Source: Microcaldota archaeon (lineage in GTDB: Archaea; Micrarchaeota; Micrarchaeia; Norongarragalinales; UBA8480). From it: DNA of 64,000 nt. A model generated the notes under the pieces. That model was given only the letters and a program-made list of their open reading frames with translations. It was not told the origin of the DNA and did not search any database. The stretch is from NCBI GenBank assembly GCA_023247085.1, contig JAHFHC010000003.1, forward strand, positions 7,800 through 71,799, written 5' to 3'. The position numbers and the translations under genes were made by a program. Positions 9,822-28,058 of the stretch are shown one piece after another. Numbering within the stretch: position 1 is the stretch's first letter; each line of letters starts with the position of its first letter.

Positions 9822-9880
9822 TTTTTTTCTCCTTATTTTTTTATTATTTTTCTATTTTTTTCGGCATATAGCTGTAAATA
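9822..9880. terminator. T-rich terminator region
   Basis: Several runs of 4-7 T follow the zinc-ribbon gene, ahead of the 3' end of the convergent E2 gene. T-runs are the usual archaeal termination signal. The region serves the plus-strand gene. Confidence 0.5.
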
Positions 9881-9947
9881 ATAGCGTTTTCTGCTGGCGG
9901 TCTTCTTTTTTTCTTGTTTTTTTCAACTATGCTGATTATTTTTGGTT

Positions 9948-10430
9948 TCAAGGTACCACTCTCGGTTTTCCTTGAATTTTCTTTTGTGGGATGAAGTTGG
10001 CAAAGTATTTTGCTGCTTCGCTGTTTAGCGGCGAATACGGATTTGGGTTTTCTAGCATTTGCAGTAGCGCTTCGGCAATGCTTGACAGCGTTTGTGATTC
10101 AGTCCAGGAATTTAGCACTTGAATGCAAACTCGACCGTCTTTTGGCCGGATATTTGGGTGAAATATGTCACTGTCCCAAATTACTTCAATTCCGCCGGCG
10201 TACGGGTATTCGCGGGTTAAGTAAATTGAAATGTTGTGGCTGTTGATTGGCACAACTGCGTCGCCGTTTTTAGTGTAGCCGCGCCCATTTAGCTTAAAGT
10301 GGTACTCGGTTTTATCCAGGTTAACTTCTAAGTCGGAAATGTGGTTGTTCTTTGAAAGCGAGGCAAATTCGTTGTCTAGCCTGCGCTTCCAAACCCCTTC
10401 AGGTAGCTTTGGCATAAGTGTTGGCTTCAA
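9948..10430 (-). CDS. ubiquitin-conjugating enzyme E2-like protein
   Basis: Takes an activated ubiquitin-like protein from E1 onto a cysteine and passes it to a target, usually with an E3. The 160 residues carry the whole UBC core: an N-terminal helix (VWKRRLDNEFASL), strands ending in LTREYPYAGGIEVIW, the HPN motif at 91-93, the catalytic Cys102 in GRVCIQVLNSW, then a helix and ENPNPYSPLNSEAAKYF, all close to eukaryotic E2s. Its TTG start shares TTGA with the Ubl stop, so the two are coupled; an ATG five codons later is an alternative start. Membership of the E2 family is clear; activity is inferred. Confidence 0.93.
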   Translation of the reverse strand: MKPTLMPKLPEGVWKRRLDNEFASLSKNNHISDLEVNLDKTEYHFKLNGRGYTKNGDAVVPINSHNISIYLTREYPYAGGIEVIWDSDIFHPNIRPKDGRVCIQVLNSWTESQTLSSIAEALLQMLENPNPYSPLNSEAAKYFANFIPQKKIQGKPRVVP

Positions 10431-10672
10431 CCTCCTGTTGGGTCTGGCATTAGTAAGAGGGTTTCGCCTTCAGTTACGCCCGCATCTTTAAGCTGTACTT
10501 CTGGAGACAAAATTTTATTGTCTGATGCCTTTGCTAGCACGAACCGGTCTTTTAATTGAAGCGAATCAACCAGCACATCTAGTACAGCTTGAACTGTGAA
10601 TTCGGGTTCAACTGCTAGTGTGATTTCTTTTCCGCTTGTTGTGTGTGAAACCTTTATGTTAAATTCAGCCAT
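10427..10672 (-). CDS. ubiquitin-like modifier ending in Gly-Gly
   Basis: An 81-residue beta-grasp protein: a beta hairpin (FNIKVSHTTSGKEITLAV), a helix (TVQAVLDVLVDSLQL), two further strands, ITEGET-like turn GVTEGET, and LLLMPDPTGG at the very C-terminus. The last two codons encode Gly-Gly, the residues joined to targets in ubiquitin. There is no extra tail, so no processing is needed before activation. It is divergent from the plus-strand operon and directly precedes the E2, overlapping it by 4 bases. The assignment rests on fold pattern, exact Gly-Gly end and neighbours. Confidence 0.85.
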   Translation of the reverse strand: MAEFNIKVSHTTSGKEITLAVEPEFTVQAVLDVLVDSLQLKDRFVLAKASDNKILSPEVQLKDAGVTEGETLLLMPDPTGG

Positions 10673-10757
10673 TTTCTTTCAATAAACGTTTACGGCGCAA
10701 AAGTTTATTATGCTTAGCGACCAGTCTTTTTAACTTATGTGCAGTTGTTACTTAATT

Positions 10758-11027
10758 ATGTCAAAGCCACGCATTTTAGATGTAAAGAAACCCGAAAAAA
10801 AACCAACTGTAGTTAATATTGAAGAAGACGACTATTCGCGCATTTTAACGCCAGTTGACCCCGTTACACAAAAGTTGCGTGAAGGACAACTAAAAGACGC
10901 TATTCCACAACAACCCGCATTTTCTCCGCTTGGCCTTGATCCAGAAGTTAGAAAAAAAATTGAAGAAGACCGAAAAAAGAGGCGAGGGTTAGTGGGAGAA
11001 GTCAAAGACGCGTTTGGGGTTAAGTGA
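10758..11027 (+). CDS. small charged protein, first gene of the kinase-like/JAMM/RING operon
   Basis: An 89-residue protein rich in Lys, Glu, Asp and Pro with little hydrophobic core, so likely disordered or a binding peptide. It includes PVDPVTQKLREGQLKDAIPQ and a helical EVRKKIEEDRKKRRGLVGEV. It starts the plus-strand operon divergent from the Ubl and E2 genes, and ends 3 bases before the kinase-like gene. I prefer the ATG at 10758; an ATG at 10737 would add seven residues. The family is unknown. Confidence 0.6.
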   Translation: MSKPRILDVKKPEKKPTVVNIEEDDYSRILTPVDPVTQKLREGQLKDAIPQQPAFSPLGLDPEVRKKIEEDRKKRRGLVGEVKDAFGVK

Positions 11028-11030
11028 GAG

Positions 11031-11792
11031 ATGCCGCTTGAATGGAAAACAACCAAATTGCTTACGCTGAACGGGCGCGTAACTGTCACTCACTGGAAAA
11101 AGCACTCACCACGTGCCTTGCTTGCTGCACTTGAAAGTGAACCATTAAAAAAATTTCCCAGATCCACTCCGCCTGTTTGGTTTCATAAGTTTGCTGGTCA
11201 AACCGTTGTCGTCCGAGCTACTGCGCCGCACGGATTATCTCACCCAATTCTCGGTGGTACAGAAATTGAATGTATGCCGCCAAAGCAAATTTTTGAAATT
11301 CTTAAGGAGTTAGCAGAAAAAAAAGCAGCGTTTGTTGAAGTGCCTGTTGCTTTGATTGAGGGAAAAACCTTTCACGCGGTAGTTACTCTTGCTAAGCCGC
11401 ACCGCGCTTCGCTTCAAGAGGTATTATCCGCTGACGATGTTTCTGAATTTAAAAAACAGGCGTTGGCAGTAAAAGCGATTAAGTTGTTTGCCCGTTTAAA
11501 CGCGCTTGGGTATAAACATAATCATCCCGACCCGGTAAATGTAGTTGTTATGAAGAATGACGGAGTTAGGTTAATTGATCCAACTTTACTTGAGCGCTTT
11601 CCAAAGGAGGGGCCGTGGCGTATAGAAAGTATAGATTCTCGCGCAAGATTGTTGCAACCATTTATGAACATTTGGCTTAGAAACCACCCTGGGCAGGATT
11701 ATCCAATAGAACATTTGCATGGCTTAATACGTGAGCTGGATTCAGCGTACCATACCGAATTTAAGCGGGTTAAGGCGAAACAACGTGTTTGA
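11031..11792 (+). CDS. kinase-like protein in the ubiquitin-like locus
   Basis: A 253-residue protein whose C-terminal half resembles the catalytic lobe of the protein/lipopolysaccharide kinase superfamily: LFARLNALGYKHNHPDPVN gives an HxDxxN-like loop (His165, Asp167, Asn170), and VRLIDPTLL supplies a possible metal Asp183 in place of DFG. The N-terminal half has beta strands but no clear glycine loop. It may be an atypical kinase or a pseudokinase. Its end overlaps the JAMM start by 8 bases, so the two products are made together. Confidence 0.6.
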   Translation: MPLEWKTTKLLTLNGRVTVTHWKKHSPRALLAALESEPLKKFPRSTPPVWFHKFAGQTVVVRATAPHGLSHPILGGTEIECMPPKQIFEILKELAEKKAAFVEVPVALIEGKTFHAVVTLAKPHRASLQEVLSADDVSEFKKQALAVKAIKLFARLNALGYKHNHPDPVNVVVMKNDGVRLIDPTLLERFPKEGPWRIESIDSRARLLQPFMNIWLRNHPGQDYPIEHLHGLIRELDSAYHTEFKRVKAKQRV

Positions 11793-12258
11793 CATTTACA
11801 TTCATGCTAGTGCAGTGCAAAAAGCTGAAGAGTACTTTTCTGTGTTAGCGGCTTCAAAATTAGAGGGGTTAGGGCTCTTGGTCGGCAGCAATTTCGAATA
11901 CGAGGATGCTAATTATTTGCAAATAGTCGATTTTATAACTGGCGAGACAAACTCTTCGGCTGTTTCAGTGAGTTTTTCCAAACACGCATTTGAGAAACTA
12001 GCCGGCGACTTAAAAGAACGTGATGAAATTGTGGTTGGCTGGTGTCATTCTCACCCAACTTATGGTTGCTTTTTATCCGCCACTGATGTAAATGCGCAGC
12101 GTAGTTTTTTTAATGAAGATTTTCATGTTGCCGGCGTGTTTGACCCAATGCGCAAAGAAGATTTCGGCAGCGTAAATGCAATGGCGAAGCGTTTTTACAG
12201 GTTGACTGATAAGGGGTATAGGGAAGTTTCGTTTGCGGTGGTAAAAGATGTCAAGTGA
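11785..12258 (+). CDS. JAMM (MPN+) metallopeptidase, Rpn11-like deubiquitinase
   Basis: Cleaves the isopeptide bond between a ubiquitin-like protein and its target, using zinc. From a GTG start the 157 residues contain the JAMM set: Glu28 in KLEGLGLLVG and the HxHPx6Sx2D motif His88, His90, Ser98, Asp101 in GWCHSHPTYGCFLSATDV, which follows the proteasome lid peptidase Rpn11 closely. The GTG at 11785 overlaps the upstream stop as GTGTTTGA; upstream in-frame residues do not look like the family. The 3' end overlaps the RING-type gene by 11 bases. Confidence 0.92.
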   Translation: MFDIYIHASAVQKAEEYFSVLAASKLEGLGLLVGSNFEYEDANYLQIVDFITGETNSSAVSVSFSKHAFEKLAGDLKERDEIVVGWCHSHPTYGCFLSATDVNAQRSFFNEDFHVAGVFDPMRKEDFGSVNAMAKRFYRLTDKGYREVSFAVVKDVK

Positions 12259-13219
12259 GTTACAAACTATAAATTCCAATAAGCCCAATGCCGTAAAGTC
12301 GGTTGGAGAAAAGGAAAAACAAAGTACAGCCAAGCCAATTTCAACGACCCCGTCGGCGCAATCCACCGCTGAAGAAAAACCTATTTCAACAGAGAAAAAG
12401 AAGCGCGGCCGCAAACCAGTTTTTAAGCCAACTCAGTTTGACTTGGATTTAATTCATTTAATTCGCGAAGGGGCAACTTCAACTGATGAGTTATTGTATG
12501 GTTTAGGAGTAGCGCGTTCTGAATTAATTCAACGTTTAGATTTATTAAAAACGGAAAATTTAGTGGCAGAAGAAAAAGACGGTGCAAATTTGCAGTTTGG
12601 GTTAACTGTAAACGGGTATAATTTTTATGCTTCTAAAGGGGCGAAAAAAGTCGGCCTCAAAAAATCTTTTTCTGGCGAAGTAAAGTTATACAAGCATAAA
12701 CAAATTGAAAAGCACGACGCGATGCCAGTGCAGGGGCAGAAGCACGTTAATGATTTTCTTTCGTCAACTGAGGTGGTTGACCTTGGGGGAAAATTAGGTA
12801 GGATGGATTTAGAGGAAATAATAAAACGCTATGGCCCGTCAAGCGAACAAAAAGATAAGTTCTTGCGTCAAAAAGCAACCGAGATCAACCAGGAAAAAAA
12901 GCAGGTTCAACCACAAATCCAGCGCCCAGTTCAGCAACCGACGCTTGCAAGTCCAATTGCTGCCGCGCAACCAGTTGCAGGCAATGTAAATTCTTCCGAC
13001 ATTTGTGATTTGTGCAAATCGGATTTCAAGATGTCGATGAATAATCCCGAGCTAGCAAAATACGGGCATTGTTTTTGCGGTGCAGCTTACCACAAGGAAT
13101 GTTACGATTCGCTTCTTTCAGATAACGCCAAGTGTATTCGTTGTGGCAAAAAATTATTTTTGATTGTAGATAAACAAAGTCGAGAGGCAATAAGTGGGTT
13201 AAGGGACGCGTTTGAATAG
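12248..13219 (+). CDS. winged-helix plus RING-type zinc finger protein, candidate E3
   Basis: A 323-residue protein: a polar N-terminus with an AT-hook-like KKRGRKP, a winged-helix region at about residues 60-130 (FDLDLIHLIREGATSTDELL), a Gln/Pro linker, and a C-terminal zinc finger with Cys253, Cys256, Cys275, Cys277, His282, Cys285, Cys296 and Cys299. That C4HC3 order fits RING-CH/PHD-like cross-brace fingers. In a cluster with E1, E2, Ubl and JAMM the natural reading is an E3, comparable to the small RING protein of the Caldiarchaeum ubiquitin operon. The winged helix suggests targets on DNA or chromatin. The E3 role is inferred. Confidence 0.75.
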   Translation: MSSELQTINSNKPNAVKSVGEKEKQSTAKPISTTPSAQSTAEEKPISTEKKKRGRKPVFKPTQFDLDLIHLIREGATSTDELLYGLGVARSELIQRLDLLKTENLVAEEKDGANLQFGLTVNGYNFYASKGAKKVGLKKSFSGEVKLYKHKQIEKHDAMPVQGQKHVNDFLSSTEVVDLGGKLGRMDLEEIIKRYGPSSEQKDKFLRQKATEINQEKKQVQPQIQRPVQQPTLASPIAAAQPVAGNVNSSDICDLCKSDFKMSMNNPELAKYGHCFCGAAYHKECYDSLLSDNAKCIRCGKKLFLIVDKQSREAISGLRDAFE

Positions 13220-13288
13220 AAGTGCTTAATTCAGGTTTTCATTCTTATGCCCGAAAGCCTTTTTATTTAAAAAAGGTGTTGCACTTAC

Positions 13289-13762
13289 ATGGTTTCAAAA
13301 ATTTCAAGGTTATCTGCAATTAGAAAAGCAATCCGCTGGACTAGAAATGGAGTTGACTGGCATTTTCACTTATTATCCCCTGGCTGTTTGTATAACTCAA
13401 CTCGCGAGCATGAATTGTTCCTAGAGTCGAAGTTTGGGGCATTTGTTGCGCGCTCTTGGCGCTCGTTGGTAACAATTGCAAAACATTTGCTTCATTTATT
13501 AGAAAAACGAAATGTGAAACGAGTTTCTGCTTCTTCTGCACTTGGAATAGGGAAAGTTTTACTTCAAGCAAAGCATTTGAATGACAAGAAAATCCGCTGG
13601 CACCACCATTTGCTTTACCCACATTGTGTGCTGAACAAAAAGCGCGGCAAATGGGCTATTATTTTTGAAGACCCGCTGAACAACAAAGTTACTGAATTAT
13701 TTTACTCCAGTTATCCCGGCAAAGATTTGAATAAATTAGAGTTACTTTTTTACAAGCAATAA
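13289..13762 (+). CDS. protein with duplicated WHxHLLxPxC motif, unknown function
   Basis: A 157-residue basic protein with an internal duplication 80 residues apart: W24-H-x-H-L-L-x-P-x-C33 and W104-H-x-H-L-L-x-P-x-C113, each followed by a hydrophobic residue and Asn. The His and Cys spacing would suit metal binding. A good Shine-Dalgarno AGGTG (13274-13278) sits 10 bases before the ATG. It lies between the RING-type gene and the convergent E1 gene, within the ubiquitin-like locus. I cannot assign a family. Confidence 0.65.
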   Translation: MVSKISRLSAIRKAIRWTRNGVDWHFHLLSPGCLYNSTREHELFLESKFGAFVARSWRSLVTIAKHLLHLLEKRNVKRVSASSALGIGKVLLQAKHLNDKKIRWHHHLLYPHCVLNKKRGKWAIIFEDPLNNKVTELFYSSYPGKDLNKLELLFYKQ

Positions 13763-13774
13763 TTTTAGTATTAG

Positions 13775-14530
13775 CTAATGCACGGGGCAACTGTTTCTCT
13801 TTTCAATTGTGAATATGTTTGTTTGTCCAGTTAGCCCGTTGTAAAATGTGTATTTTCCAGCCAAAGTCGTTCCAGTTTTTAGTATTAGTTTAACGAATTC
13901 ATTTACTTGCATGCCTGCAATGACGCTTGTTGTTGTTGGCAACGCTGGCATTTTTGGGTCTATAATATCGAGCATTTCTCCTACGCACGAGTATTTTTTC
14001 CATAGCAAACCATAGTCTTGTTTTGACAATCCACATTCGAGACAAGCGGCTGGTGCTTGCACTACTTGCAATTTACCGAGAAACCCGCTTGTGCCGCCGT
14101 CAATTAAGATGACTTTGCCATAACAATTTGCATTAACGTGCAGCCGCGCCCCTAAATTATCTAGACAGCCGAATACAGCATCAAAACCAGAGAAAAATTT
14201 ATCGTCAAGTGCCTCAACGTTTTTTATAATTGGGGTTACAACCGCCGCTGGATTGAGTTTTTTAGCTGCGAGACTGAGCGCTTCGGCTTTTAGTGCCTTG
14301 TTTTCTGCATCGTTTTGTGTAAATAACAGGCAGCGGTTTAAATTTGCTTTGACAACTGTGTCGAAGTCAATAACAGTAAGCTGGCAAACGCCTAGTTGCA
14401 GCAAATTCTTAGTCACTTCATTGCCTAATGCGCCAGCGCCGACAATACAAACCTTGGCACTCGCGATTTTTTCTTGATTCCAACCCGCAACGCGCTTTTG
14501 CCGATCAAACTGGTCATCATCTACATTCAT
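13775..14530 (-). CDS. E1-like (ThiF family) ubiquitin-activating enzyme
   Basis: Adenylates the C-terminal Gly of a ubiquitin-like protein and, in true E1s, holds it as a thioester. The 251 residues show the ThiF Rossmann fold: GAGALG at 31-36, DFD at 55-57 with NLNR66, and the ATP-site Asp124-Asn125 and Arg129. Zinc ligands appear as CLEC (163/166) and CPVH (248/251). Cys182 in KYSCVG, ahead of MPALPTTTSVIAGMQ, sits where the E1/UBA3 catalytic Cys lies. It is much shorter than eukaryotic E1 and lacks a C-terminal Ubl-fold domain. It follows nreA by 24 bases. Confidence 0.9.
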   Translation of the reverse strand: MNVDDDQFDRQKRVAGWNQEKIASAKVCIVGAGALGNEVTKNLLQLGVCQLTVIDFDTVVKANLNRCLLFTQNDAENKALKAEALSLAAKKLNPAAVVTPIIKNVEALDDKFFSGFDAVFGCLDNLGARLHVNANCYGKVILIDGGTSGFLGKLQVVQAPAACLECGLSKQDYGLLWKKYSCVGEMLDIIDPKMPALPTTTSVIAGMQVNEFVKLILKTGTTLAGKYTFYNGLTGQTNIFTIEKRNSCPVH

Positions 14531-14554: not shown

Positions 14555-15706
14555 TTAAAAATCCGTCAACTTGCGCTGTGAAAGTACTCTGCTTGTTGTG
14601 GTGTATTGTTCAATTGGTCGCTTTAATCGCTTTTTTAGTTCCTCTATTAATTCATCGCGCGTTTCAAACGTCCTTGGCTTATTCTTTAGCGCAGCGCGGC
14701 AATTTTCACGAACCTGGAAAACGCCCAAGGGTACTTGGTATTCGTCGCTTATTTCACGTAGAACGATTGTTCGCGCTTGGCGTTGTATTTTGTACAGGTG
14801 TTCAACGCAGGCTATTCTTCCAGCGTAGTACCCGCCGCCTTCTCGCGTTGCATAGGTTGTTCTTCCTTCAAAGGGTTCGTACTCGTACTCCATTTGTTTT
14901 GCTTTAGCTGCCCAGAAGCTGTTTGGTTCCCATGATTCAAATTGTTCAAATTCCCAAGTGCCGGGAATAAATACGATTTCAAAGTGGTTGCCCATCCATG
15001 TGTTACTGTGAAGTTCGATGTCACTAATTGTCCGAAATTCGCGTACATCAGTTAATAGTTGTTTTGCAATTAAGTCGTCTGCGGCAGTTATTGACCAGCG
15101 CGTTGGTACTAGTTTTTTTTCAATGCCGAGTGCGCCACTTGACAATGCTCTTTGTAAGTAATATGTGTCTCCAAAAAATTGAAACCCTTCGTGTACTGCG
15201 GTTGCCACGGTTATTTTTTCTTGTACAAGTGAAATTACTTTTCGCGGGATTGACGGGTTATCTGCCAGGGTGAATTTTTCCATTTTGCCGCTCGCGCCCA
15301 TTGGCGGCAAGTACGTGGAAAAATTAACTTGCTGGAATGGCTCCCTTTCAAAGAAAACCTCCATGTCAATTGGCTTTAGTGAAAGCGCAGTGTCTTGCAA
15401 ATCAAGTGACATTCGGTTATTTGAATTTTTAACATTCAAAACAGACTCGCCACGCGCTAATGACAGTCGATGTTCAACTATTTTTTCCAAGCTAAGCCCA
15501 TACCATTTTCCAGGCGAGTCGCTGTCGGTTATCTGCTCGCTTATGCCGACCATTGGGCCAGCGAATACGTTTGGGTAATTGTATTTGCCTATGAAAACGC
15601 TTGAAGGAGATTTGCCAAACACGTTCTTCGGAATACGCTTTGAAAACAACGGCTTCAAATTAGCTTCAATTTGTTTGTACAGTGGTGTTGAATTCAAGGT
15701 ATTCAT
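14555..15706 (-). CDS. nreA: NreA-family DNA repair protein with PIP box
   Basis: Nre proteins are archaeal factors in DNA damage tolerance that bind PCNA. The 383 residues carry family segments such as SVFIGKYNYPNVFAGP, TDSDSPGKWYGLSLEKIVEHR and MGNHFEIVFIPGTWEFE. The final residues QRKLTDF (377-383) form a PCNA-interaction box of the QxxLxxF type. The usual N-terminal Cys cluster is not evident. It lies directly upstream of the E1-like gene on the same strand, so co-transcription is likely. Confidence 0.88.
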   Translation of the reverse strand: MNTLNSTPLYKQIEANLKPLFSKRIPKNVFGKSPSSVFIGKYNYPNVFAGPMVGISEQITDSDSPGKWYGLSLEKIVEHRLSLARGESVLNVKNSNNRMSLDLQDTALSLKPIDMEVFFEREPFQQVNFSTYLPPMGASGKMEKFTLADNPSIPRKVISLVQEKITVATAVHEGFQFFGDTYYLQRALSSGALGIEKKLVPTRWSITAADDLIAKQLLTDVREFRTISDIELHSNTWMGNHFEIVFIPGTWEFEQFESWEPNSFWAAKAKQMEYEYEPFEGRTTYATREGGGYYAGRIACVEHLYKIQRQARTIVLREISDEYQVPLGVFQVRENCRAALKNKPRTFETRDELIEELKKRLKRPIEQYTTTSRVLSQRKLTDF

Positions 15707-15802
15707 GCTATTGTGATTATTTTGTGCGCCTAGTTCTTTTTAATTTAAGTGAAACAACGCGGTTCACTCTGAAGCCCAAACCTTTTAGCCGCATTATGCG
15801 CG

Positions 15803-15856
15803 TCTTTTACGTGCCTCTTATATGGCTTTTACGAATCTTTTACATGTCACTTATAG
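15803..15856. repeat. two direct copies of a 21-bp element
   Basis: Copies at 15803-15823 and 15836-15856 share the form TCTTTTAC-TG-C-CTTATA, with about four differences and a 33-base period. They lie in the 230-base gap between divergent nreA and the AAA+ ATPase gene. Placement suggests tandem binding sites for a regulator; that is inference. Confidence 0.35.
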
Positions 15857-15936
15857 TTAGTAGTGCCCAAAGTCGCAGTTGGCGCAAGCCTTTTAAAGGT
15901 CTTTTATGTAATGTTTGACCCTTGAGTGTTTAAGAA

Positions 15937-17091
15937 ATGGAAGACGTTTTTATTGCAAAGGAAAAAATGCTTTCTACTTTAGGTTGGAACGAAAACCCCT
16001 TTGTAAAAGACTTGCGTTTAAGCGAAAAAGGCGAATTCCTTAAATATTACTGCCCGCTAGATGCGGCTAAGGTATTGGAGAAACTAGCGTTTGATGCTAA
16101 AGCTTGTCTTTTACTTGGGCCAAAGGGAGTTGGTAAAACTTCGGCACTTTACTACATTTGTTATTCGCTTCCAGAAACATTTGAAAAAGTAATGTTCAAG
16201 GAGCCGCCAGCTGACTTAAACGAATTAGCTGACCAGCTTGGGTTTAACCGCACAACCGGAATAGCATTTATCCCTTTTCTTTCACATAAGCGTGACGTGT
16301 CGCGCCAAGAGCTTTCTCGTTTTCTACGTGGAAAAACCAGCGAGAAGAAAATGGTTATGTTCATTGATGAAGCTCAACTTGGCCCAGAAATGTACATGGA
16401 ATTCAAATACTTGCTTGATGATGTTCCAAACTTGCGCATTGTATTCTCTGCACTTGACAAAAGCAAGTTTCCGGATTCGTTGCTTCATTTAATTGGTACA
16501 AGCAATGTGTTCAGTCGTGCTAAATTCACTTGTGATGAAATGACTGAGATAATTAGACACCGCATAGTGTCAGTTGGCGGAAAAAATTTACAGCCATTTG
16601 CAGATAAAGTTTTGAAAACCGTTTTATCTGAACAAAACTTGTTGTCTCCGCGGTACGTATTTGATGAGCTAAACACGCATCTCGCTAAACTGGCACTTGG
16701 CGAAGAAAAAACCGCACCATATGCAGATGACCTGCTTATTCAAAGTGCTATTCAACGTAGTCGCGAACAGCCGCAATTAACTGATTATAGTTTTACAACT
16801 AGTCATGCTCCGTGGTGGATGATGTTATCTCCCTCTCAAAAAGCAATTTTATCGCAATTGATAAGTGGAGAGGGTATGTCTTTATCTGATTTAATGACTC
16901 GAACCGGCTTAACGCAGAACACTGTGTTCAATGCATTGTACCAGTTGCGCGGCGACGATGATGCTGAAAAAGAACGTAAGCCAGAAGTCCCTTTTCCACT
17001 TGTAATGGCAAAACAGCAGTTTGTTGGAAAAAGAAAAAAAAACTTGTATTTTTTGAATAACAAAATTAAGAATTTATTAACGACGCATTGA
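15937..17091 (+). CDS. AAA+ ATPase with C-terminal winged helix
   Basis: A 384-residue ATPase: Walker A GPKGVGKTS (about residue 62), Walker B MVMFIDEAQ (about 140) and a sensor-1-like LRIVFSALDKS, followed by a lid and a winged-helix segment MMLSPSQKAILSQLISGEGMS. The layout is that of Orc1/Cdc6-like and related DNA-binding AAA ATPases, but I cannot place it as a replication initiator. It is followed by a small gene and a histone on the same strand. Start is ATG without a visible Shine-Dalgarno. Confidence 0.75.
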   Translation: MEDVFIAKEKMLSTLGWNENPFVKDLRLSEKGEFLKYYCPLDAAKVLEKLAFDAKACLLLGPKGVGKTSALYYICYSLPETFEKVMFKEPPADLNELADQLGFNRTTGIAFIPFLSHKRDVSRQELSRFLRGKTSEKKMVMFIDEAQLGPEMYMEFKYLLDDVPNLRIVFSALDKSKFPDSLLHLIGTSNVFSRAKFTCDEMTEIIRHRIVSVGGKNLQPFADKVLKTVLSEQNLLSPRYVFDELNTHLAKLALGEEKTAPYADDLLIQSAIQRSREQPQLTDYSFTTSHAPWWMMLSPSQKAILSQLISGEGMSLSDLMTRTGLTQNTVFNALYQLRGDDDAEKERKPEVPFPLVMAKQQFVGKRKKNLYFLNNKIKNLLTTH

Positions 17092-17117
17092 GTGTGGAAT
17101 TGTAGGGGGGATAATGA

Positions 17118-17258
17118 ATGAAAAGTGGAAATTTAACATTTTTTGAATTGTTTGAAGTGTTTCGCAAAACACGTACAGCTATAAAGTTTGAAACAAGACA
17201 AGGTGAAACTTTTGTCGGGGTGGACAAAAGCGGAACTTTGATGGTTTCAAGAAAATAA
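17118..17258 (+). CDS. 46-residue basic protein, unknown
   Basis: A short frame between the ATPase and histone genes. It encodes LTFFELFEVFRKTRTAIKFE followed by a beta-like GETFVGVDKSGTLMVSRK. The preceding GGGGGG run may act as ribosome binding site. The two-strand ending recalls a fragment of an Sm-like or SH3-like barrel, but it is too short to assign. The coding signal is modest. Confidence 0.4.
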   Translation: MKSGNLTFFELFEVFRKTRTAIKFETRQGETFVGVDKSGTLMVSRK

Positions 17259-17333
17259 TTTTTTAAGCAACGTATGCCGGAAATCAGGGGTGGTTTCTGC
17301 ATTTGTGTGCATATATATTTAGGGGGGAAAAAT

Positions 17334-17561
17334 ATGGTGGGTATCGATAATGATAGGTTTTCGTTGTTCGACATGGATAATATCCTTCGAACAGCCGGTG
17401 CAGAGCGAATAGATGAGCGCGCTAGCAAGAAATTACGCGAATTACTAGAGGATTCAGCTTCAGATATAACTCTAAAAGCAAAGATACTTTCAAGGCATGC
17501 TGGACGCAACAACGTTACGCCTGAAGACATTCGGTTAGCCGCACAACAAATCAGGACATAG
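17334..17561 (+). CDS. archaeal histone
   Basis: A 75-residue histone-fold protein that dimerises and wraps DNA. Family marks are NILRTAGAERI (first helix and loop), ASDITLKAKILSRHAGRNNVT and the final helix PEDIRLAAQQI; RHAGR with the following TxxDI is the DNA-contact and dimer region. The N-terminus before the first helix is about 15 residues, slightly longer than in classic HMf proteins. I chose the ATG at 17334, since upstream in-frame residues do not fit the family. A second histone is at 32978. Confidence 0.93.
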   Translation: MVGIDNDRFSLFDMDNILRTAGAERIDERASKKLRELLEDSASDITLKAKILSRHAGRNNVTPEDIRLAAQQIRT

Positions 17562-17566
17562 GCATT

Positions 17567-17830
17567 ATGAAAATAGAGAAAAAAGTTTGGCCTCAGTATT
17601 TCAATTTGATATTGAGCGGTGCAAAGAAGCTTGATATTAGGGTGGCTGATTTTGAAGCGAATATTGGCGATGTGCTGATATTACGCGAGTGGGATCCGGA
17701 GACAAAGCAGTATACTGGCCGAAGTTTAGAAAAGAAAATCACCTACGTAATACGCACAAAAAACCTAGATAAAATGTACAGGCAAGCGGATATTGAAAAG
17801 TATGGATTTGTTGTAATGCAGTTTGAGTGA
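17567..17830 (+). CDS. ASCH-domain protein (DUF3850-like)
   Basis: ASCH domains are small beta barrels related to PUA and probably bind RNA or modified nucleotides. The 87 residues show WPQYFNLILSGAKKLDIRVAD, with the Lys and Arg typical of DUF3850, then GDVLILREWD and a C-terminal YGFVVMQFE strand. It follows the histone by 5 bases and probably shares its transcript. The converging DHH gene ends 8 bases beyond. Confidence 0.8.
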   Translation: MKIEKKVWPQYFNLILSGAKKLDIRVADFEANIGDVLILREWDPETKQYTGRSLEKKITYVIRTKNLDKMYRQADIEKYGFVVMQFE

Positions 17831-17837
17831 TTAAGTA

Positions 17838-19277
17838 TTAGTCTAGCTTTACTTCTTCGCCTGAGAGTTGCTTGTGGATAATACCTGCGCATTTTAGTAG
17901 AAATTCATTTAGCGATCTTTTTTCAACACTTGCGCCTGCTGCAACTTTGTGCCCGCCACCAGTGCTTTTGCCAAGGTCTTTGCATGCTATTCTAAGCATT
18001 TGGTTTAAATCTAATCCCTTTTCAATGAGTTCATTTGTTCCTCTAGCTGATATTTTTAACATTTCGTGATCATCTTCGTCAAGCGAAAGCGCGATTATGG
18101 GCTTAGTTGACTGAACTAAGTTCGCTAGTGTTGCGCCTGCAACTGTGCCAATTATACTGTCCTTCACTTGGCCGCGTAAATCTAGCAAGTAAAATTCGCC
18201 TGCGTCGCTTAGCTTATGTTTGGCAAGCGTCATTCCGCTGCGTAAGTTTTGTCTATGTGCTTGCATTATTTCCATTGCTTTTTTGCGGCTATCCGGATTT
18301 TTGAGGCAAGCCCCAACCCCGGTTTGTGCTTCGTTGTTTCTACCGCATGCATTCATAACCACTGAAAATTCATGGCTGTCAAAAAAGGGGGTGCCTGGTT
18401 GTTCGTTATTGAATAAGTAAACGTCACCGATCATTTTGTCAACTGCTTTTTCCGCCATTCCGTTTGCCAAACAATGTTCGATTAATGCGCTTGAGAGCCG
18501 CTTGCGGTCGTCTTCTTGTAATTCATAATAAGAAACGTACTTGTCGTTTTGCTTGTATGGGATTTCATTTTCAGCTAAGAACTGCGCGCAGTTTTTGTCG
18601 TTGCCAGTTAAGCCCGGTAAAAATGGGTCACTTGCATAGCTTAGAAACCCAATTAAGCTTCGGCTACTTCTACCGAAAATGCGCAAGTCTTTTTTTACAG
18701 TTGTTATTCCTGCGTCAACTGAGTCTTTCAAAATAAGTTTGTTTACTCCAATTAACCCCGCGCGGTCTTGCATGTCCCCCACTGTTGAAACAAGCGCAAG
18801 TTGTGATAGCTCTGGAAATTCTCTGAAACAAAGATAGGATGTTCCACCGCCGCATGCTTCGTTGCCACCATCTATGCCAAAATCGTGCGGATTGACAATA
18901 GTTATGTTGCTGTCAGCTGGTCGTTGGTTAACTGGTGTTTCGGGCTCGTGGTGGTCGAGAATAATGATTTCTCTATCTGGCAACGCTTCTGCTAATTTGG
19001 AAGTGTACCCTGCCCCAAGGTCACAAAAAACTATTTGCTTGAACGTAGTTTCTTTTAGTTTTTGCAAGTATTCTGGAGTAGTTTTCTTCCAGCATTGCAT
19101 AGCTGGAGCAATTCCGTTACGGTACATTGCGCTGAAAACAATTGAACCAGCTGGTATCCCATCTGCGTCAAAATGGTGCACGATCACAGCATCGTCGAAC
19201 TCACGTATCCGCTTCCCTGCAACTATGCATGCTTTGAAAAAGCCAGTTTCGTCTCGTTGCTTTTCAATCTCAGTCAT
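17838..19277 (-). CDS. RecJ-like DHH-family phosphoesterase
   Basis: DHH phosphoesterases of this type are single-strand 5' exonucleases or GINS-associated nucleases in archaea. The 479 residues start with VIVHHFDADGIPAGSIV (motif I Asp), then IIILDHHEP (DHH motif), and end with the DHHA1 signature GKSTGGGHKVAAGAS. Two catalytic Asp and the DHH histidines are present. It converges with the ASCH gene. A second, more divergent DHH protein is encoded at 55517. Confidence 0.88.
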   Translation of the reverse strand: MTEIEKQRDETGFFKACIVAGKRIREFDDAVIVHHFDADGIPAGSIVFSAMYRNGIAPAMQCWKKTTPEYLQKLKETTFKQIVFCDLGAGYTSKLAEALPDREIIILDHHEPETPVNQRPADSNITIVNPHDFGIDGGNEACGGGTSYLCFREFPELSQLALVSTVGDMQDRAGLIGVNKLILKDSVDAGITTVKKDLRIFGRSSRSLIGFLSYASDPFLPGLTGNDKNCAQFLAENEIPYKQNDKYVSYYELQEDDRKRLSSALIEHCLANGMAEKAVDKMIGDVYLFNNEQPGTPFFDSHEFSVVMNACGRNNEAQTGVGACLKNPDSRKKAMEIMQAHRQNLRSGMTLAKHKLSDAGEFYLLDLRGQVKDSIIGTVAGATLANLVQSTKPIIALSLDEDDHEMLKISARGTNELIEKGLDLNQMLRIACKDLGKSTGGGHKVAAGASVEKRSLNEFLLKCAGIIHKQLSGEEVKLD

Positions 19278-27939: not shown

Positions 27940-28058
27940 GCGATAGCGGCCATAGGAGAGTGGAAATACCCAGTCCCATTTCGAACCTGGAAGTCAAGCA
28001 CTCTAACGGCACTCCCAGTACTGTTGTGATCAACGGGAACAGAAGCTGCTGCTATCAC
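27940..28058 (+). rRNA. rrf: 5S ribosomal RNA
   Basis: About 119 nt. The ends GATAGC and GCTATC form helix I. Conserved blocks are GCGGCCATAG, CCCAGTCCCATTTCGAACCTGGAAGTCAAGC (loops B and C, given by position 27969-27999) and the CAGTACTG-type loop E/helix IV region. There is no 16S, 23S or tRNA beside it, so it is a stand-alone 5S gene with its own TATA box. The trm5 gene converges on it. Confidence 0.95.

Follow-up and report, generated by a model that had tools for sequence, protein, structure and literature searches.

A 64,000-nucleotide stretch of contig JAHFHC010000003.1 (positions 7,800 to 71,799 of the forward strand; hereafter the window), from the assembly of a Microcaldota archaeon of the order Norongarragalinales, phylum Micrarchaeota (GCA_023247085.1; 893 kb, 92% complete), carries five ubiquitin-system genes at 9844-14530. 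They encode a ubiquitin-like modifier (Ubl), a UBC-fold conjugating enzyme (E2), an Rpn11-type JAMM metalloprotease, a winged-helix/RING-like protein that is a candidate ligase (E3), and a single-domain activating enzyme (E1). We consider it highly probable that these genes constitute a complete, minimal cascade of ubiquitin-type conjugation and deconjugation resembling that of Caldiarchaeum, with E1, E2, RING and deubiquitinase (DUB) components. A preliminary description of the window had placed the five genes here in a DPANN-like host. The host is indeed a Micrarchaeon, with a Candidatus Micrarchaeota relative (JAUYPK010000005.1) at 69% E2 identity, and the five open reading frames (ORFs) were confirmed where they had been placed; profile searches, AlphaFold models and orthologue alignments (20-26 sequences) back all of them, the RING protein most weakly. 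Some details needed correction: the JAMM gene starts at GTG 11785, an upstream ORF read as 96 aa starts at 10758, and a microprotein gene on the minus strand at 9844-9951 had been overlooked. E2 and Ubl are read leftwards, JAMM and the RING protein rightwards, and E1 leftwards again:

9844..9951, minus strand: X2 microprotein, 35 aa, TTG start, N-terminal KPKIISI
9948..10430, minus strand: E2, PF00179, TTG start at 10430 (or ATG at 10415)
10427..10672, minus strand: Ubl, 81 aa, C-terminus ...MPDPTGG followed by the stop
10758..11027, plus strand: p96-type companion, 89 aa, disordered
11031..11792, plus strand: inserted gene (earlier label 'kinase-like'), no conserved membership
11785..12258, plus strand: JAMM metalloprotease of Rpn11 type, PF01398, GTG start, predicted DUB or Ubl maturase
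12248..13219, plus strand: RING protein, candidate E3, with winged helix, linker and C4HC3 finger
13289..13762, plus strand: 157-aa protein, genus-restricted, no assigned function
13775..14530, minus strand: E1, PF00899, 251 aa, Cys182

Core proteins and the proposed cascade

The Ubl reading frame terminates precisely at Gly-Gly, and the gene shares four bases (TTGA) with that of E2. Single-sequence Pfam matches were all below threshold (YukD 2.3e-4, ubiquitin 6.5e-3), and the AlphaFold (AF2) model, with a predicted local distance difference test score (pLDDT) of 80, matched ubiquitin, including that of Caldiarchaeum, in Foldseek searches (probability 1.00, template-modelling score about 0.80-0.85). 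The predicted structure thus places the 81-residue protein in the beta-grasp fold, as had been proposed. GG is invariant across 24 orthologues, and conservation ends there: 18 stop at GG, and the other six carry tails of 1, 1, 2, 8, 14 and 18 residues. An invariant GG followed by variable tails is the pattern typical of a processed modifier. The tails of 8, 18 and 14 residues occur at L035:10278-10547, L045:3020-3316 and L029:921-1205, respectively.

The protein encoded from 9948, for which a UBC fold had been predicted, was kept in that fold by profile searches (PF00179, UQ_con, E=5.8e-18), and its best matches among solved structures (PDB profiles) were UBE2H (1.4e-18) and then UBE2A. The HPN motif and the catalytic Cys (residue 102 counted from the TTG start, or 97 from the ATG, giving H86 P87 N88 C97) are invariant in 26 orthologues, and W104 and PNP-type motifs are conserved. 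By sequence it belongs to the UBC-type conjugating enzymes, with thioester formation predicted. The JAMM protein matched PF01398 (JAB) at 3.1e-10, with Rpn11 (4.8e-22) as its best solved match, followed by Caldiarchaeum Rpn11 (CsRpn11; 2.1e-19), CSN5 (1.2e-18) and AMSH (3e-9). Residues E26, H87, H89, S97 and D100 of its ExnHxHPx6Sx2D motif are invariant in 23 orthologues, identifying it as a predicted DUB or Ubl maturase of the Rpn11 type; its gene begins, at the GTG, before the gene in front of it has reached its stop.

The E1 protein matched PF00899 (ThiF) at E=3.1e-47, and its profile compared with solved structures favoured Uba1 (6.3e-35) and Uba3 (8e-34) over MoeB (6.8e-26) and UBA5 (8.6e-20). 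The GxGxxG motif (G31-G36), D55, N63-R66, K81, D124 and C182 are invariant in 20 orthologues, as is a CCCH zinc site. Orthologues range from 244 to 282 aa and comprise a single adenylation domain, lacking both the C-terminal ubiquitin-fold, E2-recruiting domain and the pseudo-adenylation partner domain of Uba1/Uba3-type enzymes; with one adenylation domain alone the protein is therefore E1-like, and not a canonical E1. The eukaryotic UFM1 pathway (UBA5-UFC1) likewise couples a single-adenylation-domain E1 of similar size to a UBC-fold E2, but differs in its E3 and protease, and the preference of our E1 profile for Uba1/Uba3 over UBA5 also sets the two apart.

The RING protein combines an N-terminal Lrp/AsnC-type winged helix, a disordered, low-complexity linker containing a conserved DLxExxxxGxP element, and a C-terminal C4HC3 finger whose eight zinc ligands are all invariant in 21 orthologues. 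In single-sequence Pfam searches the window protein had only a sub-threshold match (0.18). The match list of its AF2 model holds only RING/U-box and similar zinc fingers, which is supportive of a RING fold, although not decisive, and a treble-clef finger of a different type (PHD or C1, for instance) is possible. On its sequence we therefore class the protein as a candidate E3, the weakest of the five identifications. Across the five families, the catalytic residues and zinc ligands singled out in the preliminary description proved invariant among orthologues.

The Caldiarchaeum five-part set has been reconstituted as an E1/E2/RING/Rpn11 cascade (PMC5654768, PMC6043591), and from that cascade and the families involved we infer thioester transfer and E3 and DUB activity; motif docking and the targets and fate of tagged proteins are likewise predictions. 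E1 would use ATP to adenylate the Ubl at its C-terminal Gly, hold it as a Cys182 thioester and pass it to Cys102 of E2; the winged-helix/RING protein would bind the E2~Ubl intermediate and steer transfer onto target lysines; and the Rpn11-type JAMM would trim Ubl precursors that are tailed after GG (unneeded in the window's genome) and strip Ubl from its targets. Two companion proteins described below, p96 and X2, share the tail motif of E2 and would dock with it on a common partner.

Several points count against this reconstruction. The Ubl resembles ubiquitin only weakly in sequence, and loop 4 of E2 has GG, PG or similar where PP is usual. RING matches in Pfam are weak (zf-RING_2 is the commonest, in 15/21 members, at best 0.0021, while C1_1 reached 2.9e-4 in one member), and the AF2 model of the RING protein is modest (pLDDT 70; top Foldseek match HRD1, E 3.7e-3; best Z 5.5 (VIA)). 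Canonical E1s have an inactive half-domain and a C-terminal ubiquitin-fold domain; the E1 here has neither, and E1-E2 transfer must run differently as a result. The tree of the system presented below is confined to proteins of the order.

The features of E1 also bear on an alternative in which the Ubl serves mainly as a sulfur carrier for tRNA or cofactor thiolation, with conjugation on the side, as in dual systems of the SAMP/Urm1 kind, and E2 and the RING protein are otherwise employed. In size and zinc layout E1 matches MoeB/UbaA/Uba5-type enzymes, and ThiF/MoeB models lead its single-sequence NCBIfam results, every one of them scoring far under cut-off. Nevertheless, the E1 profile lies nearer to Uba1/Uba3 than to MoeB, there is no rhodanese domain, and several genomes, including that of the window (G000, contig C16), keep a separate, ordinary ThiF/MoeB. 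Moreover, an E2 with an active-site Cys, a RING-like protein and a JAMM of the Rpn11 type, not the desampylase type, are always present, and we regard a sulfur-carrier role as the main function as improbable.

Distribution and inheritance

Profiles of the five families were run across 301 Micrarchaeota genomes, comprising 29 of the window's order and 272 outside it. Within the order, E2, Ubl and the RING protein were each found in 26/29 genomes, JAMM in 27/29 and E1 in 25/29; the two genomes without any system gene are 61% and 79% complete. The 272 genomes outside the order yielded no Ubl and no RING match, one marginal E2 fragment (9.8e-4, with internal stops) and, for the E1 profile, only ordinary ThiF/MoeB proteins, none scoring beyond about 100 bits. 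In 25 genomes of the order the E1 profile scored 385-441 bits, whereas the remaining ThiF proteins of Micrarchaeota reached about 100 bits at most. UQ_con was found in 0/14 well-known control genomes. One lone Rpn11-like JAMM lies outside the order (G033 contig C5:7065-7430, 1.9e-22, part of an open frame of 1029 aa); its genome, from another order of the same class, is 100% complete and has no Ubl, E2 or RING match.

Comparison of wide loci from 25 genomes revealed the same block in most of them, with leftward E2 and Ubl, rightward JAMM and RING, and leftward E1; about 25 related genomes keep this neighbourhood. The genes are unlinked in some genomes, among them G008, G012 and G019, yet the full set is still present. 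Co-occurrence of the families within a single order, where they are also syntenic, takes their association beyond chance. Joint action of the genes in one pathway was an inference in the preliminary description and is one still, now on the much stronger footing of strict co-occurrence, synteny and variable tails after an invariant GG. In a concatenated tree of the five proteins, grouping tracks the host families: labels change 5 times, where 4 is the minimum and shuffling gives 11.8 on average. This fits an old system, present in the ancestor of the order and vertically inherited within it since.

These patterns also speak to whether the lineage acquired a bacterial-type E1/E2/JAB antiviral module, either Bil or CBASS-associated. 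Such modules combine E1, E2, JAB and Ubl genes, and PADLOC E1-E2/JAB models gave weak matches to E1 (3.3e-14), JAB (1.1e-5) and E2 (0.0021), all far exceeded by the canonical E1, E2 and Rpn11 matches. Defence genes tend to be mobile and patchily distributed, whereas this system occurs in nearly every genome of the order, its position fixed next to NreA, AAA-ATPase, histone and RecJ genes, and its five-gene tree follows the host families. No relative was found among the viral contigs scanned. With weak PADLOC matches, a housekeeping neighbourhood and no relative in the scanned viral contigs, we rejected the defence-module reading as very unlikely. The fate of proteins tagged by a conjugation cascade is less constrained: 20S proteasome genes occur in 60/60 tested genomes, with or without the system, and because relatives without it have the proteasome equally, its presence is uninformative; degradation of tagged proteins is possible, but not indicated.

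Companion proteins and neighbouring genes

Beyond the five core genes, the preliminary description counted a 'small protein-kinase-like' gene (11031-11792) as a member and overlooked two true ones; the core stands, the kinase-like gene does not. It produced no significant Pfam, NCBIfam or PDB match (PDB WbdD at E 0.72), matches no kinase family, is missing from the locus of the sister genome, and has paralogues elsewhere in its own genome (contigs C36 and C31), 73% and 51% identical. It appears as a lineage-specific multicopy gene that landed within the JAMM operon.

The two true members are p96 and X2. The low-complexity p96-type gene lies immediately 5' of JAMM in the window and in 22/22 other loci with context (23/23). 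Its product here has the N-terminus MSKPRILDV, the middle element KLREGQLKDAIP and the C-terminus EVKDAFGVK; most p96 proteins start M.KP[RK][IV][IV].V and have in common a RxQASRDIxP-like middle element and a basic amphipathic C-terminus. The X2-type microgene lies immediately 3' of E2 in 24/26 genomes, encodes 33-65 aa (once 146 aa), and in the window overlaps the E2 stop in the same manner as Ubl and E2 overlap. X2 proteins typically carry an N-terminal KP[RK][IV][IV]xV motif, then ER.PPSExEYxF, and often an amphipathic end like that of p96. E2 itself ends in KPRVV here, and all 26/26 E2s have an ending of the KP[RK][IV][IV] type.

One motif is therefore common to the E2 tail, p96 and X2, suggesting that all three probably dock on a single partner. 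An attractive docking site would be E1, because it has no E2-recruiting domain of its own; alternatively, the motif may bind the Ubl in the manner of a SUMO-interacting motif (SIM). More specifically, E2 might be recruited through its C-terminal KP[RK][IV][IV] tail, while p96 and X2, acting as a scaffold, a membrane tether or a reader of the Ubl, compete for or extend the docking site, a proposal we offer as tentative and by no means the expected outcome. The motif could instead have nothing to do with the cascade, perhaps serving as a generic hub-binding motif of archaea, with p96 and X2 as mere neighbours. The motif is short and both proteins are of low complexity, but the p96 and X2 genes adjoin JAMM and E2, often overlapping, in nearly all loci. 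Furthermore, among 2131 neighbourhood ORFs the C-terminal motif is almost confined to E2 (28 ORFs have it in their last 12 residues, nearly all E2) and the N-terminal one to p96 or X2 (17/18). Searching the DNA of the order with a strict pattern of this N-terminal motif gave 11 matches, nearly all in p96/X2 genes, with an exception at G012:C6. We consider such unrelatedness possible, if rather doubtful.

The 157-aa gene at 13289-13762 was also considered as a core member and set aside, being found in the genus only; its product is probably outside the core system. It is single in the window and present as a tandem pair in the sister genome (L029:3763-4835), and similar stretches within the protein (HWHFHLLSPGC and RWHHHLLYPHC) suggest an internal duplication. 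Across the order the locus is adjoined by NreA-like, AAA-ATPase, histone and RecJ-like genes, which look housekeeping or informational (14555-19277 in the window; the last three names come from reading the sequence); in other families an Lhr-like helicase and a DtdA-like gene join them (names partly by sequence reading). Other neighbourhood ORF clusters (e.g. F17, F18, F12 and F13) were disregarded as apparent shadow ORFs opposite real genes. Elsewhere in the window, a 5S rRNA gene at 27942-28057 (78.8 bits) is the sole Rfam match at gathering threshold.

Relation to known systems and wider meaning

Ubiquitin, E2, E1, RING and Rpn11-type JAMM genes are clustered in the operon of Caldiarchaeum subterraneum (Aigarchaeota) (PMC5654768; PMC6043591), and the co-encoded set that marks Caldiarchaeum- and Asgard-type systems is present here in full. 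As the preliminary description stated, gene order and extra members differ from those of Caldiarchaeum: the order is another, as is the phylum, and two KPRIV proteins are added. Caldiarchaeum ubiquitin has its GG exposed by Rpn11, whereas most Micrarchaeota Ubls are made already GG-ended and only some orthologues need such maturation. For the Caldiarchaeum E1, modelling gives a catalytic-Cys domain plus a C-terminal UBL domain, compared with one 250-aa domain here, and the RING protein of Caldiarchaeum is small, while the C4HC3 ligands here sit on a winged-helix protein of 230-380 aa. Asgard genomes also hold ubiquitin, E1, E2, RING and JAMM-type genes, partly clustered, in Ub/ESCRT gene clusters (PMC9192718); the Micrarchaeota clusters have no ESCRT genes and are a minimal one-copy set. 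The haloarchaeal SAMP/UbaA/HvJAMM1 system (PMC4895103) likewise pairs an archaeal beta-grasp modifier with a MoeB-sized E1 and a JAMM protease, but SAMP conjugation proceeds without E2 and RING, and the Micrarchaeota JAMM is of the Rpn11 type.

The open-access full texts searched describe ubiquitin systems for Aigarchaeota and Asgard and none for DPANN or Micrarchaeota; prior mention elsewhere is possible. Two Micrarchaeota genome papers covering Norongarragalinales, Anstonellales and other orders leave ubiquitin unmentioned. This is, then, a known kind of system in a new lineage, and what is new is the single-domain E1, the winged-helix RING protein and the two companions.

Full archaeal E1-E2-RING-Rpn11 systems have been discussed almost only for Aigarchaeota and Asgard, where they feed the debate on eukaryote origin. 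The present locus widens their distribution to a whole DPANN order with genomes of roughly 0.7-1.4 Mb, and ubiquitin-like chemistry would accordingly not be restricted to the archaea usually tied to that origin. A minimal cascade made of a single E1 domain and one each of E2, RING protein and DUB is available across the order in about 25 natural variants, and opens to testing how a single-domain E1 would pass a Ubl to E2 without the usual recruiting domain. If it holds, tail-based recruitment would be an ordering principle that the ubiquitin systems of eukaryotes, Asgard archaea and bacteria are not known to have, and one fixed in this DPANN order from its last common ancestor on. The KPRIV proteins may expose regulators of minimal ubiquitin systems that have been missed through their small size and disorder.

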